13,589 bases of DNA from Alistipes sp. (GTDB lineage: Bacteria; Bacteroidota; Bacteroidia; Bacteroidales; Rikenellaceae). The notes under the pieces were generated by a model that saw nothing but the letters and a program-made list of their open reading frames with translations, had not been told where the DNA came from and ran no database searches. Within the stretch, counting starts at the first letter, position 1. The number at the start of each line of letters is the position of its first letter. Of this stretch, positions 4,481 through 12,550 are shown one piece after another. The translations under genes and the position numbers were made by a program. The stretch covers positions 1 to 13,589 of the forward strand of contig JAGBIR010000238.1 of the NCBI GenBank assembly GCA_017934845.1, written 5' to 3'.

Positions 4481-5554
4481 CTATTTGCTGTTCATAACCT
4501 CGTTCTGGCGGGCGATACTCTCCAAGTGGATTGCCTCCAAAACCGAGCGAACAAAATCTTCGCTGAGGCCCATGCCGCGAGTCATCGAGAGCATACGGCG
4601 GCAGATGTCGTCCCAACGGTTGCTCTGGAGGATGGCTACGTTGTTGGCCTTCTTAATCTTACCAATCTTCTCGGCCGTACGCATACGCTCGCTCAATAGC
4701 TCAAACAGCTCGGAATCAATCTGGTCGATCTGCTGACGGCAGACGTTAAGTTCGCTGTTGAACTCGGGGTCGTTGGCCGTCTTTGCACGCCACATTACGT
4801 TGTCGATCATCGTGATGCAGTCCTGCGGAGTAACCTGCTGCGAAGCGTCGCTCCACGCCTTGTCGGGGTTGTTGTGGCTCTCGATGATAAGACCGTCGTA
4901 GCAGAGGTCGGCTGCCTGCTGCGAAATGCCATAAAGCAACGGACGGCATCCGCAGATGTGCGACGGGTCGCAAATCATCATCATCTCGGGAAAGCGGCTG
5001 CGCATCTCGAAAATCATGTGCCACATAGGCGGATTGCGGTATTTGCTATGACCGAAATAGGAGAATCCGCGGTGGATAAGACCAATATTTTCGATGGGTA
5101 CACCCTTGTTAACCAAGCGGTTGACAGCACCTGCCCAAAGGCCGATGTCGGGAGTCATAGGGTTCTTAATCAGTATGGCAACATCCTTGTTATTCTCCAA
5201 GCTCTCGGCAATCTCCTGTACGGCAAAGGGCGAAACGGTAGTACGCGCTCCAATCCACAGCAAATCGACGCCATGCTTCAACGCGCACTCGACGTGTGAG
5301 CGGTTGGCAACCTCGACTGCGATGGGTAGGCCCGTAGCCTGCTTCACCTCGTTCAGCCACTCAAGGCCCGGCTCGCCAATGCCCTCGAAGGTTCCGGGGT
5401 TGGTGCGCGGCTTCCACACGCCGGCGCGTATAACATCGACGCGGCCCGAGCGTGCAAGTTGCATTGCTGTCTCGATGGTCTGCTCGCGTGTCTCGGCACT
5501 ACAAGGACCTGCTATGATTAAGGGACGTTTCTCCCCTAACTTGAACTTACTCAT
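4481..5554 (-). CDS. aroF: Bifunctional DAHP synthase / chorismate mutase
   Basis: 357 residues. The N-terminal part (about 1-250) is a class I-beta DAHP synthase, which condenses phosphoenolpyruvate and erythrose-4-phosphate in the first shikimate step: GPCSAE at 16-21, KPRTNP at 48-53, LIKNPM at 128-133, DPSHICG at 196-202. The C-terminal part (about 258-347) is an AroQ-type chorismate mutase: Arg263, Arg280 in LLSERMR, Lys289 region, Arg303. This order of fusion is known from Bacteroidales; the Prevotella nigrescens enzyme of this design is inhibited by prephenate (established for that enzyme). The gene is last in the pheA-aminotransferase-tyrA operon, 72 bases after tyrA, with a hairpin in the gap. 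The pathway entry step and chorismate-to-prephenate step are thereby under the same switch as both prephenate branches. Confidence 0.95.
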   Translation of the reverse strand: MSKFKLGEKRPLIIAGPCSAETREQTIETAMQLARSGRVDVIRAGVWKPRTNPGTFEGIGEPGLEWLNEVKQATGLPIAVEVANRSHVECALKHGVDLLWIGARTTVSPFAVQEIAESLENNKDVAILIKNPMTPDIGLWAGAVNRLVNKGVPIENIGLIHRGFSYFGHSKYRNPPMWHMIFEMRSRFPEMMMICDPSHICGCRPLLYGISQQAADLCYDGLIIESHNNPDKAWSDASQQVTPQDCITMIDNVMWRAKTANDPEFNSELNVCRQQIDQIDSELFELLSERMRTAEKIGKIKKANNVAILQSNRWDDICRRMLSMTRGMGLSEDFVRSVLEAIHLESIARQNEVMNSK

Positions 5555-5626: not shown

Positions 5627-6469
5627 TTATTTCAAAATATCTCGTATTTTGTTCGCCTTTTGCATGGCCTCGACCAAGCCCTCTCTGTCGTCGCGTTCGA
5701 TCATGCGTCGCAGAATCTGCAATTGGTGGATATGCTCGCGCAAGACATCAAGCACGTTGTACTTATTACCCAAAAATATTGGTGCCCACGTCTGCGGAAG
5801 ACTCTTGGCCAAGCGTACGGTACTCTCGAAACCTCCGCCCGCAAGGTCGAAGATATGCTCCTCCTCGCGCTCCTTCTCCAATACCGTAAGGGCCAGAGCG
5901 AATGAGGTAATGTGCGAAATATGAGATACATAGGCGCAGTGGGTATCTTGATCTTCGGCCGACATATAGCGTATTGGCATACCCAGCGTGCGATAAATCT
6001 CCTCAACCACATGCAGGGCATCGCTATCGGTCTTTTCGCGTTCGCAAATAACCACCGTACGACCCGTAAAGGCGTTATGCTCGGCAGCCTCGGGACCGCT
6101 GTTCTCGGTACCCCACATAGGATGAGTAGCAACCAATCGACCTCGGTTGGGATGTAGCATCGTTATCTCGCAAAGCTCCTGCTTTGTTGAACCCATATCC
6201 ATCAAAATCTGATTGGGACGGATCTGGTTGAGATATTTGGTTGCCATCACAGGGATGGTGTCAACGGGAGTGGCCAAAACTATTAAATCGCTCTGTTCCA
6301 GCGCCTCGTCCATAGTAACGATGGCGTCAACCAAACCCAGCTCCAAAGCCTTCAGTGCGCTCTTTTCAGAGCGTTCGATGCCTGTTACGCGTTCGCAAAT
6401 ACCCTTCTCCTTCAGACTCAAGGCAAATGATCCGCCAATAAGGCCCAATCCGACGACTGTTGCTATCAT
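5627..6469 (-). CDS. tyrA: Prephenate dehydrogenase
   Basis: 280-residue NAD(P)-dependent dehydrogenase converting prephenate to 4-hydroxyphenylpyruvate for tyrosine synthesis, in the cytoplasm. Seen: Rossmann GLGLIGGS at 7-14, ATPVDTIP near 66-73, DMGSTK at 91-96, THPMWGTENSG at 115-125 with the family's conserved His116, and the helical dimerisation domain with YVSHISHITSFAL at 180-192. There is no C-terminal ACT domain and no fused chorismate mutase, so mutase activity must come from the adjacent fusion enzyme. An arogenate preference cannot be excluded from sequence alone. It starts 16 bases after the aminotransferase stop, in the same operon. Confidence 0.93.
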   Translation of the reverse strand: MIATVVGLGLIGGSFALSLKEKGICERVTGIERSEKSALKALELGLVDAIVTMDEALEQSDLIVLATPVDTIPVMATKYLNQIRPNQILMDMGSTKQELCEITMLHPNRGRLVATHPMWGTENSGPEAAEHNAFTGRTVVICEREKTDSDALHVVEEIYRTLGMPIRYMSAEDQDTHCAYVSHISHITSFALALTVLEKEREEEHIFDLAGGGFESTVRLAKSLPQTWAPIFLGNKYNVLDVLREHIHQLQILRRMIERDDREGLVEAMQKANKIRDILK

Positions 6470-6485
6470 AATCGTTGGTGTAATA

Positions 6486-7664
6486 TTATTTTACAAAACG
6501 GCTCTTTACGCGCTCGGCAGCCTCGGCCAAACGCTCGGCAGGCATACAGAGTGAGATACGGATATACTTCTGACCCTCGCTACCAAAGATACCTCCGGGT
6601 GTTACAAATACGTCGCACTCGTTGAGTACCTTATCCGAGAATGCGAAGCAATCGCCCTCGAAATTCTCGGGCATGGCAGCCCAGACAAACAATCCTGCCT
6701 GACCTTTGGCGTAGGTACAGCCAAGTGCATCGAGCAGCTCGTAACCGCGTGCCTCACGAGCATAGTATGTCTCATTTAACTCCTCGAACCACTCATCGCC
6801 CAAGGCCAAAGCCTCGGCAGCAGCAGCCTGTACGGGGTAGAACATACCCGAATCCATATTTGACTTAAAGCGCAGGATGTCGCTCAAAATATCGGCACGA
6901 CCTGCTACAACGCCTACACGCCAGCCGGCCATTGAGTGACCTTTACTTGTCGAGTTCATCTCGATAGCTACGTCCCAAGCACCCGGAACGGCGAGAATGC
7001 TCAACTGAAGGTTGTTACGAACGAAGCTATATGGGTTGTCGTGAACGAGCAGAATATTGTGCTTGCCGGCAAAAGCAACCAACTTCTCGAACAACTCAAC
7101 AGTGGGGTGAGTTCCCGTAGGCATATTGGGGTAGTTGACGAACATCAACTTTACGCGGCTCAAATCCTCCTTCTCGATCTCCTCAAAATCTGGATAGAAG
7201 CCGTTGGCTGCGTTGAGACGGTACTCCAAAACATCACCACCTGCCAATGTTACGGCAGCGCGGTAGGTGGGGTAGCCCGGGTTGGGAACCAACACCTTAT
7301 CGCCCTGGTCGAGGAACGCCATACAGATGTGCATAATACCCTCCTTTGAGCCGAGCAGGGGCAACACCTCGTTCTTGGGATTGAGTTTTACGTTGTACCA
7401 CTTCTCGTACCACTCGGCATAAGCCTCGCGTAGAAGGTCGCTACCGTTGTAGGGCTGATATGCGTGTACGTCGGGGCGTTGAGCCTCTGTCGCCAAACGG
7501 TCGATAACCTTTTGTGCGGGGGGCATATCGGGGCTACCGATACCCAAACTGATGATGTCACGACCTGCCTTGCGCAACTCGGCTATTTCGCGGTTCTTCT
7601 TCGAAAAGTAATACTCCTTGATGCAATCCATACGGTGTGAAGGAGCGATCTCTACTCTTGCCAT
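6486..7664 (-). CDS. PLP-dependent aminotransferase (class I/II), aromatic operon
   Basis: 392-residue fold-type I aminotransferase. PLP-site marks: Asn180 in NYPNMPTG, Asp209 in VHDNPYSF, Schiff-base Lys241 in STSKGHSMAGWRVG with Arg249, and substrate-carboxylate Arg369 in YIRIS. Length is normal for the AspC/LL-diaminopimelate aminotransferase-like group. Its position between pheA and tyrA makes it the likely last-step enzyme that aminates phenylpyruvate and 4-hydroxyphenylpyruvate to Phe and Tyr (inference from context; family members also act on aspartate or diaminopimelate precursors). It follows pheA by 47 AT-rich bases with no terminator or clear promoter. Confidence 0.9.
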   Translation of the reverse strand: MARVEIAPSHRMDCIKEYYFSKKNREIAELRKAGRDIISLGIGSPDMPPAQKVIDRLATEAQRPDVHAYQPYNGSDLLREAYAEWYEKWYNVKLNPKNEVLPLLGSKEGIMHICMAFLDQGDKVLVPNPGYPTYRAAVTLAGGDVLEYRLNAANGFYPDFEEIEKEDLSRVKLMFVNYPNMPTGTHPTVELFEKLVAFAGKHNILLVHDNPYSFVRNNLQLSILAVPGAWDVAIEMNSTSKGHSMAGWRVGVVAGRADILSDILRFKSNMDSGMFYPVQAAAAEALALGDEWFEELNETYYAREARGYELLDALGCTYAKGQAGLFVWAAMPENFEGDCFAFSDKVLNECDVFVTPGGIFGSEGQKYIRISLCMPAERLAEAAERVKSRFVK

Positions 7665-7711: not shown

Positions 7712-8521
7712 TTATTTGCCACTGCGGTAAACGCCATAGACATGAATCTCCTCGGTGGCTTCATGTAGGCTGTCGAGATTGCGGATGTAATCGTCCAAAC
7801 AGTTGAATTCCAAATCGATGTGGAACAGGTAGTGCCACGGTTCGCTCGGGATGGGATATGACTGCAACTTCGAGAGGTTGATGCCATCGAGCTTGCTCAA
7901 CGCCTTTAGGAGCGAGCCCTCCTCGTGGTTGGTCTTGAAGTAGAGCGATGCTTTGTTGGCGTCGGGTGCTATGTCGTGGTCGTAACGCTTGAGAACCATA
8001 AAACGAGTGTAGTTGTTCTTTATGGTGTTAATCTCGGGTGCGATAATCTTCAAACCATACATCTCGGCAGCCAATTCGCTGGCGATGGCGGCGGTGTGAC
8101 GCAGGCCCTTCTCGGCAATATGCTTGGCACTCAAGGCGGTATCTTCCGACTCGATGAGCTTCCATGAGTGGTTATCCAGATAATCGACGCACTGTAACAA
8201 CGCCATAGAGTGTGACTCCACCTCGCGAATATCCTCCAGCTCGACATCGGGCAATACCATCAGATTCTGCTTGATAGGTTGATAGACCTCGCCTGCAACC
8301 TGCAGATTCTCATCTTGCAGGATGCTGTAGTTGGGGATGATAGAGCCTGCAATTGAATTCTCGATGGCCATAAGGCCCATGTCGGCTTCGCCCTGCTTGA
8401 CGGCTGTAGCTACCTGACGGAACGTATCGCAAGGCAGAATGTCGATTTGACGACCGAAATAATCTATGGCTGCAATGTGGTGGAAACACCCCTCATAACC
8501 CTGTATGGCAATCTTCAACAT
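7712..8521 (-). CDS. pheA: Prephenate dehydratase
   Basis: 269 residues; converts prephenate to phenylpyruvate. The catalytic domain covers about 1-178 (IAIQGYEGCFHH near the start, AIENSIAGS at 52-60, YTRFMVL at 171-177 with the TRF triad). An ACT regulatory domain covers about 190-265. The ACT motifs, GALV and ESRP in E. coli PheA, read GSLL (202-205) and QSYP (220-223) here, so Phe binding may be altered or lineage-specific. There is no fused chorismate mutase. First structural gene of the operon; its ATG lies 15 bases after the U-run of the attenuator terminator, so all expression from the upstream promoter must read through it. Confidence 0.95.
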   Translation of the reverse strand: MLKIAIQGYEGCFHHIAAIDYFGRQIDILPCDTFRQVATAVKQGEADMGLMAIENSIAGSIIPNYSILQDENLQVAGEVYQPIKQNLMVLPDVELEDIREVESHSMALLQCVDYLDNHSWKLIESEDTALSAKHIAEKGLRHTAAIASELAAEMYGLKIIAPEINTIKNNYTRFMVLKRYDHDIAPDANKASLYFKTNHEEGSLLKALSKLDGINLSKLQSYPIPSEPWHYLFHIDLEFNCLDDYIRNLDSLHEATEEIHVYGVYRSGK

Positions 8522-8535
8522 TGTAACTTAAAATT

Positions 8536-8570
8536 AAAAAATCCCGACCAAGTTAAATACGGTCAGGATT
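8536..8570 (-). terminator. Attenuator terminator hairpin (3:4) before pheA
   Basis: In the minus-strand transcript AATCCTGACC (8570-8561) pairs with GGTCGGGATT (8549-8540): 10 bp including one G-U wobble, 11-base loop, running into six T. It is an intrinsic terminator placed in the leader just upstream of the pheA start, not after a gene, which is the hallmark of transcription attenuation. Confidence 0.9.
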
Positions 8571-8629
8571 AATTATTATATATGCAAGCACCACTTATTA
8601 GCATACGACATCCTGACCGTTCGCACGGT
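8559..8629 (-). promoter_or_regulatory. Antiterminator (2:3) and 1:2 hairpin of the Phe/Tyr attenuator
   Basis: In the transcript, region 2 ACGGTCAGGAT (8620-8610) is perfectly complementary over 11 bases to ATCCTGACCGT (8569-8559), the 5' arm of the terminator and its flank. Region 2 can alternatively close a 5-bp stem with region 1, ACCGT (8629-8625)/ACGGT (8620-8616), capped by a GCGA (GNRA) tetraloop. The 1:2, 2:3 and 3:4 pairings exclude one another. Region 1 overlaps leader codons 13-15, right after the Phe/Tyr run. A ribosome stalled on codons 10-12 would block region 1, free region 2 to pair with 3 and permit readthrough. A ribosome that reaches the stop at 8598 would cover region 2 and allow termination. 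Confidence 0.9.
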
Positions 8630-8666
8630 AAAAGTAAAATCGCTTATAAAAGAAATGCTGGTTCAT
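8598..8666 (-). CDS. Phe/Tyr-rich leader peptide (22 aa)
   Basis: A 22-codon frame starting ATG at 8666 and ending TAA at 8598. It begins MNQH, then residues 5-13 are FFYKRFYFY (four Phe, three Tyr), then RANGQDVVC. Seven of nine consecutive residues are the end products of the operon downstream. The region 1/2 hairpin lies inside codons 13-18, and the stop codon is 9 bases past region 2. A leader peptide of this kind senses charging of tRNA-Phe and tRNA-Tyr through ribosome stalling. No Shine-Dalgarno is close to the ATG (AAGGA sits 13 bases upstream, too far), as usual in Bacteroidota. It is analogous to pheL of enterobacteria but not recognisably homologous. Confidence 0.9.
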   Translation of the reverse strand: MNQHFFYKRFYFYRANGQDVVC

Positions 8667-8693
8667 AAATCGTTATTTATCCTTAATGCGATG

Positions 8694-8724
8694 CAAATAT
8701 ATCATAAATAGACGATATATCAAA
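8694..8724 (-). promoter_or_regulatory. Promoter of aromatic operon leader
   Basis: The minus strand reads TTTG (8724-8721), 19 bases, then TATATTTG (8701-8694), a full match to the Bacteroides -33/-7 consensus (TTTG, TAnnTTTG). The predicted start site is near 8688, about 20 bases before the leader ATG. This places leader peptide, attenuator and pheA on one transcript. Confidence 0.85.
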
Positions 8725-8777
8725 ATGTATATCGAATAATTATGCAAAAAAATCGCGATGGTGATTCTGCTCACTAT

Positions 8778-10162: not shown

Positions 10163-12550
10163 ATGAAACTAATGTTTGCTGTGCTGGCTCTGTTGAGCGG
10201 CACACCCGATAATGATGTTTTGGTAGAGAAAAACGACAGCTTGACGCATTATGCCGTAAACGAGGTATATGTCGAGAGCTATGTCCCTAAACGCCATTAT
10301 AAATTGGATAAACAACCCATTTCGTCAACCGTGGTGGGTCAGTCGATGATTGAGCGCGAGCATATCCTCTCGCTTAAGGATCTGTCGGCAATTGCTCCCA
10401 ACTTCTTCCAGCCCGACTACGGCTCGAAGATGACATCGTCGATCTATGTGCGAGGTTTTGGATCGCGTATCGACCAGCCGGTTATTGGAGTTACGGTCGA
10501 TGGCGTGCCTTACCTTAATAAAAATAACTACGATTTCGATATGCTCGATGTCAATCGTATCGAGCTGTTGCGCGGCCCGCAGAGTACGCTCTATGGCCGA
10601 AATACGATGGGCGGTCAGATGAATATCTATACCATTTCGCCGCTTAATTATCAGGGCGCACGAGCTACGTTGGAGTATGGTGCGGGTAATACGTTGCGTG
10701 CCAAGGCGTCGTATTATGGTTTGAGCGAGAGCGGCCGCTTTGGCTATATGATTGGCGGATACTACAACCGCACCGATGGCTTCTTCGACAATGCCTACGA
10801 TGGCAGCGACGTCGATTGGGGCGAGTCGAGTGGTGGCCGAGTACGCTTGGTTGGTCGCTTGGGTCGCGGCTGGCAGATTGAGAATACAGCCGAGGTGGGC
10901 TATAACTACGAGGGTGGCTATGCCTATGCGGCTTATGATGCTGCGACAGAGGGCGCAGCCGATGTAAACTATAACGACCCAAACCGTTATATGCGCTGGA
11001 ACGTGAGCGACGGATTAATCCTCTCGCACGATGGTGAGAAGTATAAGTTTACGGCAACAACCAGCTACCAATATACTCACGACCGTATGCGTATCGACAA
11101 CGACTTTACGCCGGCGGCAATATTTACCCTTATGCAGGAGCAGCGCGAGTATGCCATAACCGAGGATATTGTTTTGCGCACTAACGATCACAATCGCCGA
11201 TGGAATTGGATTACAGGTGTTTATGGCTTCTATAAGAGAATCGATATGGCAGCACCTGTTGAGTTTTTCGAGGATGGTATCAACGACCTTATCTTGGGAA
11301 ATATGCCCGCTATGATAAAGAGCTTCCTTACGATTGATCCCTTCTCTATCGATAGCAATTTCGATATTCCGACCTATGGTGCAGCCATCTATCATGAGTC
11401 AACCTTTAATGCCGGTAAGCGTTGGCGTTTTACCGTTGGTTTGCGCTTGGATTACGAGAGCTCGAAGATGGATTACGACAATTCATCGACCATTGTCTAT
11501 TCGTTCAATATGCCCCCGATGCGCCCGGGAATGCCGGCGATATCAATCCCTAATCGCGAATATACTCTCCCTTACAAGGGTACCGAGAAATTGGATTATC
11601 TGGAGCTACTGCCCAAGTTTGCCATCAACTATACAACGGGCGTGGGCGACCTCTATGTAACGGCTACTCGCGGCTATAAGGCGGGCGGTTTCAATACTCA
11701 GATATTCTCTGATATTCTGCAAAATAAGATGAAAACGGGCCTTATGGCCGATGCAATGTCACAGATGGGTGGCGGTGCTGGCGGTCAGGGTGGCGGTCAG
11801 GGTGGCGGTCAGGGTGGCCGACCCACAGCGCAGCGTGCCGAGCAATCTGCTGGTGGCGCAGCGGGACAGCCCTCTACGTCGTACGACGAGGCTTCGGTTA
11901 CCACCTACGATCCCGAGTATAGCTGGAACTACGAGGTGGGAGGCCACCTGCAGTTTGCCGAGGGCCGCGTAGGCTTGGATTTCGCAGCCTTCTGGATTGA
12001 GTGCCGCGACCAGCAGCTTACGGTTTTCCCCGCTGGCCAGACAACGGGTCGTATGATGTCCAATGCCGGTAAGTCGCGCAGCCGTGGTGCCGAGCTTTCA
12101 CTTCGCTGGCGTGCTGCCGAGGGCCTGATGCTGATTGGTAACTATGGCTATACGAACGCTAAATTTAAGGAGTACACCGACTTTGTCGATGGTGTTGAGG
12201 TGAGCTACGAGGGTAAGTTCCTGCCCTATGCTCCGCAACATACCGCGTCGGTGGGCGCAACGTATGCTATCGATATCCGCCGCGGTTTTTTGGATGAGAT
12301 TGTGCTCAATGCCTCATGGCAGGGCGTGGGTAAGATCTATTGGAACGAGGCGAATACCCTCTCGCAGAACTTCTACTCGCAACTTAACGCGTCGGTCGAA
12401 CTCCACGCCGGTAAATTTGCATTTGGCCTGTGGGGTAAGAACCTGACCAATACGGAGTTCAATACTTTCTACTTCCGCTCAATGGAACGTGACTTTGTCA
12501 GCCTCGGCAAACCCATCCGCTGGGGCCTCTCGCTCAGCTTCGCGATGTAA
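10163..12550 (+). CDS. TonB-dependent outer-membrane receptor
   Basis: 795-residue outer-membrane active transporter. Short signal-like N-terminus (MKLMFAVLALLSG), possible TonB box EVYVESY at 34-40, plug domain about 45-165 (SIYVRGFGSRIDQPVIGV, DGVPYLN, LLRGPQSTLYGRNTMGG), then a long beta barrel with alternating aromatic strands and a C-terminal strand ending LSLSFAM. There is no N-terminal carboxypeptidase-like domain and no SusD partner in the window, which favours a siderophore, cobalamin, metal or small-molecule receptor over SusC-type glycan uptake; the substrate is unknown. A Gly/Gln-rich loop (residues about 537-575) carries a DNA tandem repeat. A strong hairpin terminator follows the stop. 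It is divergent from the LuxR-type regulator gene. Confidence 0.93.
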   Translation: MKLMFAVLALLSGTPDNDVLVEKNDSLTHYAVNEVYVESYVPKRHYKLDKQPISSTVVGQSMIEREHILSLKDLSAIAPNFFQPDYGSKMTSSIYVRGFGSRIDQPVIGVTVDGVPYLNKNNYDFDMLDVNRIELLRGPQSTLYGRNTMGGQMNIYTISPLNYQGARATLEYGAGNTLRAKASYYGLSESGRFGYMIGGYYNRTDGFFDNAYDGSDVDWGESSGGRVRLVGRLGRGWQIENTAEVGYNYEGGYAYAAYDAATEGAADVNYNDPNRYMRWNVSDGLILSHDGEKYKFTATTSYQYTHDRMRIDNDFTPAAIFTLMQEQREYAITEDIVLRTNDHNRRWNWITGVYGFYKRIDMAAPVEFFEDGINDLILGNMPAMIKSFLTIDPFSIDSNFDIPTYGAAIYHESTFNAGKRWRFTVGLRLDYESSKMDYDNSSTIVYSFNMPPMRPGMPAISIPNREYTLPYKGTEKLDYLELLPKFAINYTTGVGDLYVTATRGYKAGGFNTQIFSDILQNKMKTGLMADAMSQMGGGAGGQGGGQGGGQGGRPTAQRAEQSAGGAAGQPSTSYDEASVTTYDPEYSWNYEVGGHLQFAEGRVGLDFAAFWIECRDQQLTVFPAGQTTGRMMSNAGKSRSRGAELSLRWRAAEGLMLIGNYGYTNAKFKEYTDFVDGVEVSYEGKFLPYAPQHTASVGATYAIDIRRGFLDEIVLNASWQGVGKIYWNEANTLSQNFYSQLNASVELHAGKFAFGLWGKNLTNTEFNTFYFRSMERDFVSLGKPIRWGLSLSFAM
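11780..11815 (+). repeat. Three identical 12-base units in TonB receptor loop
   Basis: GGCGGTCAGGGT occurs three times head to tail without mismatch (11780-11791, 11792-11803, 11804-11815), encoding repeated Gly-Gly-Gln-Gly in a Gly-rich stretch of the barrel, probably an extracellular loop. Perfect repeats of in-frame length suggest slippage-driven length variation. Confidence 0.9.

Follow-up and report, generated by a model that had tools for sequence, protein, structure and literature searches.

In enterobacteria, pheA is preceded by a short, Phe-rich leader ORF (pheL), mutually exclusive 2:3 and 3:4 stems and a U-run terminator, and the phe leader of Escherichia coli is directed at Phe alone. 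Attenuation of this type requires a ribosome that follows closely behind the polymerase, with translation starting within tens of bases. Vitreschak and others, in a 2004 survey, reportedly touched on Bacteroidetes. According to the accessible part of a 2021 Flavobacterium paper (PMC9723704), structured 5' elements without Rfam hits precede pheA and hisG and are shared by other Flavobacteriaceae, and there are hints that leader peptides mediate attenuation upstream of amino-acid operons; to the extent of that text, both a structured element 5' of pheA and a suspicion of attenuation by leader peptides are already on record for Flavobacterium. The element described there belongs to the same gene as the one analyzed here, and its description, in the same accessible part, includes no Phe/Tyr codons, stems or other families. 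The accessible portions of other papers report small ORFs in Bacteroides thetaiotaomicron that resemble leader peptides (PMC7366714), the Bacteroid-trp RNA (RF01692) as a likely cis-regulatory RNA in Bacteroidetes (PMC2864571), and uORFs with Phe and Tyr adjoining shikimate genes (PMC6429828), which resemble the present leader in being short upstream ORFs that name both amino acids; the corresponding portion of a paper on the his genes of the phylum (PMC8305728) mentions attenuation for enterobacteria only. A literature search with most subscription journals outside its coverage turned up no publication that describes a Phe/Tyr attenuator across Bacteroidia. The original prediction left open whether the element is already catalogued: it is absent from Rfam 15, yet a structured element before pheA had been reported in Flavobacteriaceae, as the accessible part of PMC9723704 indicates.

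The locus analyzed here is located on the minus strand of a stretch of 13,589 nucleotides (the window) from an Alistipes sp. assembly that is 70% complete. It shares with the enterobacterial phe attenuator a leader ORF enriched in codons for the amino acid under regulation, the exclusive 2:3 versus 3:4 stems and the terminator before pheA. Unlike the enterobacterial system, however, it contains an interleaved run of Phe and Tyr codons rather than Phe codons alone, is followed by a gene cluster that adds tyrA, an aminotransferase and DAHP synthase/chorismate mutase, and has a leader without a usable Shine-Dalgarno sequence. The parts of an attenuator, their order, spacing, conservation and specificity can all be read directly from the compared sequences, and it appears highly probable (roughly 0.92) that this element controls transcription by ribosome-mediated attenuation, with Phe-tRNA and Tyr-tRNA sensed jointly.

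The candidate promoter includes the element TTTTG (8721..8725, located by sequence), which we take to be a -33 box with the Bacteroidota consensus TTTG. The candidate -7 element, TATATTTG (8694..8701), is separated from the -33 box by a 19-base spacer and from the leader ATG by 27 bases, so that transcription would start near 8687; the Bacteroidota -7 consensus is given as TAnnTTTG in the accessible part of PMC9723704. Of the 104 leaders collected from relatives (see below), 78 have this motif in the preceding 90 nt, compared to 8% in shuffles. A scan of 401 bases for sigma-70-type promoters yielded three promoter-like sites against 2.0 in shuffles and is therefore uninformative; the sequence fits the Bacteroidota-type boxes better. 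The leader ORF (8598..8666), which encodes the peptide MNQHFFYKRFYFYRANGQDVVC, consists of 22 codons followed by TAA and is conserved in the alignment of relatives. As originally predicted, seven of the nine codons between residues 5 and 13 (codons 5, 6, 7, 10, 11, 12 and 13; 8628..8654) encode Phe or Tyr; an ATG-started ORF with at least seven such codons per ten was obtained in 1 of 200 dinucleotide shuffles of 300 nt. The claim that the leader lacks a usable Shine-Dalgarno sequence stands as well, given that the weak AAGG motif 14 nt upstream of the ATG is too distant. Motifs of this kind are present at positions -20 to -5 in 11 of the 104 leaders, the distant AAGG of the window included, a raw count with no shuffle comparison.

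The RNA stems and the terminator are encoded within and immediately downstream of the leader ORF. Region 1, ACCGU (8625..8629, located by sequence), is the 5' arm of the 1:2 stem, which is closed by a GCGA loop (8621-8624, likewise located by sequence) to give the GNRA-capped, 5-bp hairpin ACCGU-GCGA-ACGGU. Region 2, ACGGUCAGGAU (8610..8620), the first five bases of which pair with region 1 too, forms 11 perfect pairs with region 3, AUCCUGACCGU (8559..8569), a complementarity that none of 200 shuffles matched. Region 3 is also the 5' arm of the terminator, where AAUCCUGACC pairs with region 4, GGUCGGGAUU (8540..8549), the 3' arm, through 10 pairs, one of them G-U, to which RNAfold adds an 11th, also G-U. 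The terminator U-run, six T (8536..8541), ends 14 bases before pheA and is the predicted 3' end of an attenuated transcript of about 152 nt. Folding of the region with RNAfold, which had been suggested as a check, recovered the terminator and gave a z-score of -2.35 for the 161-nt leader RNA, with 3 of 200 shuffles folding equally well. A mechanical terminator scan detected nothing, since it allows loops of at most 8 bases and RNAfold gives this one 9. Altogether, the promoter, leader, stems and U-run were located on the minus strand with the coordinates and in the form originally described. The first gene behind them is pheA, encoding prephenate dehydratase (7712..8521; PF00800, E 2e-57), followed on the same strand by genes for a class I/II aminotransferase (6486..7664; PF00155), tyrA, a prephenate dehydrogenase (5627..6469; PF02153 and PF20463), and a DAHP synthase fused to chorismate mutase (4481..5554; PF00793 and PF01817). 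All four, the putative operon member aminotransferase included, are probably encoded on one transcript.

Promoter use, leader translation, stalling and termination in cells can be envisaged as follows. RNA polymerase would start near 8687, with a ribosome trailing through the 22-codon leader. A shortage of charged Phe-tRNA or Tyr-tRNA would stall the ribosome within the Phe/Tyr cluster, leaving region 2 immediately beyond its leading edge; region 2 would then pair with the emerging region 3, region 4 would be left alone, and transcription would continue into the pheA-aminotransferase-tyrA-DAHP synthase/chorismate mutase genes. When both tRNAs are plentiful, the ribosome would reach the stop codon and cover region 2, so that region 3 would pair with region 4 and transcription would stop near 8536.

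The closest named relatives of the PheA protein from the window come from Alistipes-like Rikenellaceae MAGs from ruminant guts. The pheA loci were collected from 61 relatives (a match in 35, with 30 loci taken), from GTDB contigs (55 loci) and from a sample of the phylum in which 172 of 198 genomes have a pheA match and from which we used 29 loci among the matches listed and 16 further class genomes with a listed match; other classes are represented in this sample by about one pheA locus per genus. Four of the 56 additional phylum-sample stretches are genus or order relatives from the 61-genome set; three class genomes with weak pheA matches (G072, G155 and G250) were left out of the counts, and three loci with too little upstream sequence (L022, L040 and L075) were dropped before counting. 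A leader was defined as an ORF that starts with ATG and in which six or more of ten codons encode Phe or Tyr, no more than 300 nt upstream of pheA (400 nt in the phylum sample). Most of the sampled relatives have a similar leader before these genes: it is present in 68 of the 82 scored loci from the relatives and GTDB contigs (60 of 74 distinct ones), in all 10 order-level loci scored and, within 400 nt, in 37 of the 41 loci that represent other orders of the class; in other classes, only 4 of 45 loci carry one (4 of 40, then five more without). Thus, with respect to the proposal that relatives should be searched for the Phe/Tyr-rich frame, most retain the frame, not the hairpins alone. Among the 14 distinct loci without a leader within 300 nt, three are from other phyla (L083-L085), four have a similar ORF farther upstream (with a score of 6 in L078 and L082 and 5 in L080 and L081) and seven (L057, L059, L070, L072-L074 and L079, the last covered for 539 nt) have no Phe/Tyr-dense ORF upstream. 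In the four loci with the distant ORF, which belong to Rikenella and its kin, the ORF starts 343 to 672 nt before pheA, compared to the usual 130-200, and GC-rich sequence separates it from pheA; in L078, which is from Rikenella microfusus DSM 15922, the ORF spans -645 to -540. In three of the four leaderless members of the class (L098, L108 and L116, all from family f33), pheA is located directly behind another gene, presumably an aroA-like one.

The pattern of conservation in the leaders bears on what is being sensed. In the alignment of 24 Alistipes-like sequences (A1), Phe and Tyr codons exchange freely at codons 6, 7, 12 and 13, and among the 167 cells at the seven control positions, only four are neither Phe nor Tyr (I, S, H and H). 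The 104 leaders contain, on average, 5.0 Phe and 3.7 Tyr; Phe is present in all of them, Tyr is absent only from L028, and Trp is found in 23. Peptide-sensing leaders exist, and here too the leader peptide could sense a small molecule through nascent-chain arrest rather than tRNA charging, with the same RNA switch downstream, a scenario in line with the near invariance, in the close clade, of KR ahead of the second cluster and of the subsequent R, GQ and C. The constancy of GQ is, however, explained by the fact that those codons encode region 2, the free exchange of Phe and Tyr fits the need of a tRNA-charging readout, unlike a fixed arrest peptide, and outside the close clade, mainly the Phe/Tyr density is kept but not the order or the flanking residues. 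Nascent-chain arrest therefore appears very unlikely.

Of the three stems, in which covariation had been suggested as another check, two show compensatory or wobble changes. In the Alistipes-like clade, surveyed through the same 24 sequences, stem 1:2 shows a U-A to C-G compensation in six, and stem 3:4 shows wobbles and one double change. Taken together, these two stems exceed all 500 shuffles in covariation score, percentage of paired cells and number of double-change cells, and every slid version in covariation score, but are unexceptional by two other measures, the number of pairs with a double change (reached by 67 of 500 shuffles) and of pair types (43 of 500); kinship among the sequences can inflate such counts. 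Stem 2:3 is nearly invariant in the close clade, with 90% of the cells paired and no covariation beyond that of shuffles, 301 of 500 of which pair equally well, because its core never varies. The support for this stem comes from divergent lineages, not from covariation in the close clade.

Across these lineages, 105 leaders were examined for a terminator-like hairpin with a T-run downstream, and 104 have one; among 1050 shuffled versions of these stretches, 265 contained any hairpin of this kind, 15 reached -9 kcal/mol and one was as stable as the real counterpart. Under a rule that demands an unbroken T-run, no terminator is detected in L043 and L044, and a looser rule accepts L044 but not L043. 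The 5' arm of the terminator finds an upstream partner better than in 95% of shuffles in 77 of 104 leaders, including all 23 Alistipes-like ones; in the wider groups, the corresponding fractions are 13 of 20, 12 of 20 and 29 of 41. The antiterminator complementarity is weak in 18 of the 104. In 98 of 104 leaders, region 2 starts 4-16 nt past the last clustered Phe/Tyr codon, compared to 24% when the downstream segment is shuffled. A ribosome with its A site on a codon covers about nine further bases, so region 2 would begin just outside the stalled ribosome; where the complementarity is clear (77 leaders), the footprint of a ribosome at the stop codon extends over at least part of region 2 in 67 cases. 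Many of the 104 leaders are related, so that all these counts do not represent independent events. The placement of the Phe/Tyr codons and of region 2 proposed for the window is thus reproduced, within a few bases, in most leaders.

The folding behavior of these RNAs was simulated by imposing a ribosome footprint on the unfinished transcript and calculating the equilibrium pairing of region 3 with upstream sequence. For the window, the calculated pairing is 0.81-0.89 with the ribosome stalled on the Phe/Tyr codons, 0.46 with the ribosome at the stop codon and 0.71 with no ribosome; the respective means for the 104 leaders are 0.81, 0.48 and 0.68, the first being for the best stall, and taking the best of several stalls favors the attenuation model. 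The difference between stall and stop is at least 0.3 in 56 of the 104 leaders and 0.05 or less in 16. Under this model, equilibrium folding clearly matches attenuation in about half of the leaders and fails in 16, and because region 3 pairs upstream even without a ribosome, termination without translation is not generally predicted.

The presence of a terminator and an antiterminator would equally be expected of an RNA switch that binds a protein or a metabolite, such as a riboswitch, or a tRNA-binding T-box, in which case the ORF would be incidental; the structured 5' element before pheA in Flavobacteriaceae, known from the accessible part of PMC9723704, points in the same direction. However, no Rfam 15 family, T-box included, reaches the gathering score in the window, a scan of 16 pheA loci gave no match at the leader (its two matches are Flavo-1, elsewhere in L094), and neither a T-box nor, among the six window matches up to E 10, the Phe leader family is detected below the threshold. 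Matches below the threshold, the best in the window being ncr1575 with 26.7 of 60 bits and Termite-leu with 18.1 of 51, were set aside as chance, as were ncr1175 and others. Furthermore, the Alistipes-like alignment contains no conserved aptamer-like core apart from the ORF and the stems, and it is the Phe/Tyr frame that is kept in the class-wide comparison. A switch of this kind is even less probable than arrest by the nascent chain.

Specificity was assessed in the 500 nt upstream of the Pfam match in loci from the 61 genomes, contig-end-cut loci being counted as they stand, for all 24 hisG matches, 13 of 17 trpE matches (four weak ones omitted) and the 30 of 54 pheS matches that were listed. 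Phe/Tyr-dense ORFs precede pheA in 29 of 29 loci, compared to 2 of 24 for hisG, 1 of 13 for trpE and 0 of 30 for pheS (3 of 67 together). Conversely, His-dense ORFs (at least four His) are found before hisG in 19 of 24 loci, trpE in 0 of 13, pheS in 2 of 30 and pheA in 0 of 29, and Trp-dense ORFs (at least three per ten codons) before trpE in 8 of 13, hisG in 1 of 24, pheS in 0 of 30 and pheA in 0 of 29. The Trp-dense short ORFs of the trpE loci invite comparison with the Bacteroid-trp RNA (RF01692), which differs from the element described here in the operon and the amino acid and has no match to the window; no match to the trpE-type PF04715 was detected in 37 genomes of the genus of the window, many of them incomplete. 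Because the His, Trp and Phe/Tyr ORFs match their operons, attenuation looks like an ordinary means of amino-acid operon control in these bacteria. The genome of the window itself encodes a His leader, MTNTFNIHHHHHIFIKIG, before hisG (G000:C87, locus L204, approximately 10660-10716 of the contig, plus strand), and leaders with a WWW motif precede trpE in several Bacteroidales families (L214, L216-L220, L224 and others). In a few Rikenellaceae (L255, L262, L265 and L268), pheS is preceded by short ORFs that start with M.RY/F and contain 4-5 Phe/Tyr per ten codons, below the leader threshold; two of these share ..RYFRILTFF.NFAC, and they are possibly a weaker Phe leader. That the pheA leader is merely a short functional membrane or secreted peptide followed by an ordinary terminator, with pheA under its own promoter, is compatible with its partly hydrophobic sequence but is hardly credible, given that the end of the ORF contains, at a fixed spacing, the complement of the terminator 5' arm, that the ORF accompanies pheA rather than hisG, trpE or pheS, and that the gap between terminator and pheA (median 24 nt, range 12-229) usually leaves little room for a separate promoter.

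The evolutionary history of the attenuator was explored using a maximum-likelihood tree of 55 PheA proteins chosen to span families. A branch with support values of 100/99 separates 17 leaderless proteins from other classes from 34 proteins of Bacteroidia together with the four leader-bearing proteins from other classes (L086 in G216, L101 in G074, L103 in G126 and L113 in G193), all four of which are PheA of the Bacteroidia type; no leader is present in the upstream DNA of any of the 17. The PheA of L086 belongs to a supported group (100/97) with the type of the window, and those of L101, L103 and L113 branch near the base of the clade without a resolved placement. Families f58, f43 and f40 include both kinds of loci, and their leaderless members carry the other PheA type; frames resembling the aminotransferase and tyrA follow pheA in L086 and L101, as judged by eye. 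The simplest reading is that the operon and the attenuator were likely transferred together into these four genomes; alternatively, the contigs could have been misbinned.

Taking all these observations together, we lean towards an evolutionary scenario in which a dual Phe/Tyr attenuator that responds when either amino acid is short was already present in the ancestor of Bacteroidia, was kept with the pheA-aminotransferase-tyrA operon and moved with it into a few bacteria of other classes. Under this scenario, given the his and trp leaders, amino-acid operons of the class would be run by ribosome-mediated attenuation and would hence depend on tight coupling between transcription and translation. 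What sets the system apart is the readout of two amino acids, the class-wide spread and its occurrence in hosts that rarely use the Shine-Dalgarno sequence for initiation, as is the case for Bacteroidia. With class-wide apparatus and few Shine-Dalgarno-like motifs, both the coupling and Shine-Dalgarno-free initiation in Bacteroidia become testable with a small reporter, and the leaders are candidates for a new Rfam family. For gut Bacteroidales, the predicted outcome is a control circuit for aromatic amino-acid synthesis, in which the leader and the switchable hairpins most likely let the bacterium express the genes for Phe and Tyr synthesis only when those amino acids run short.
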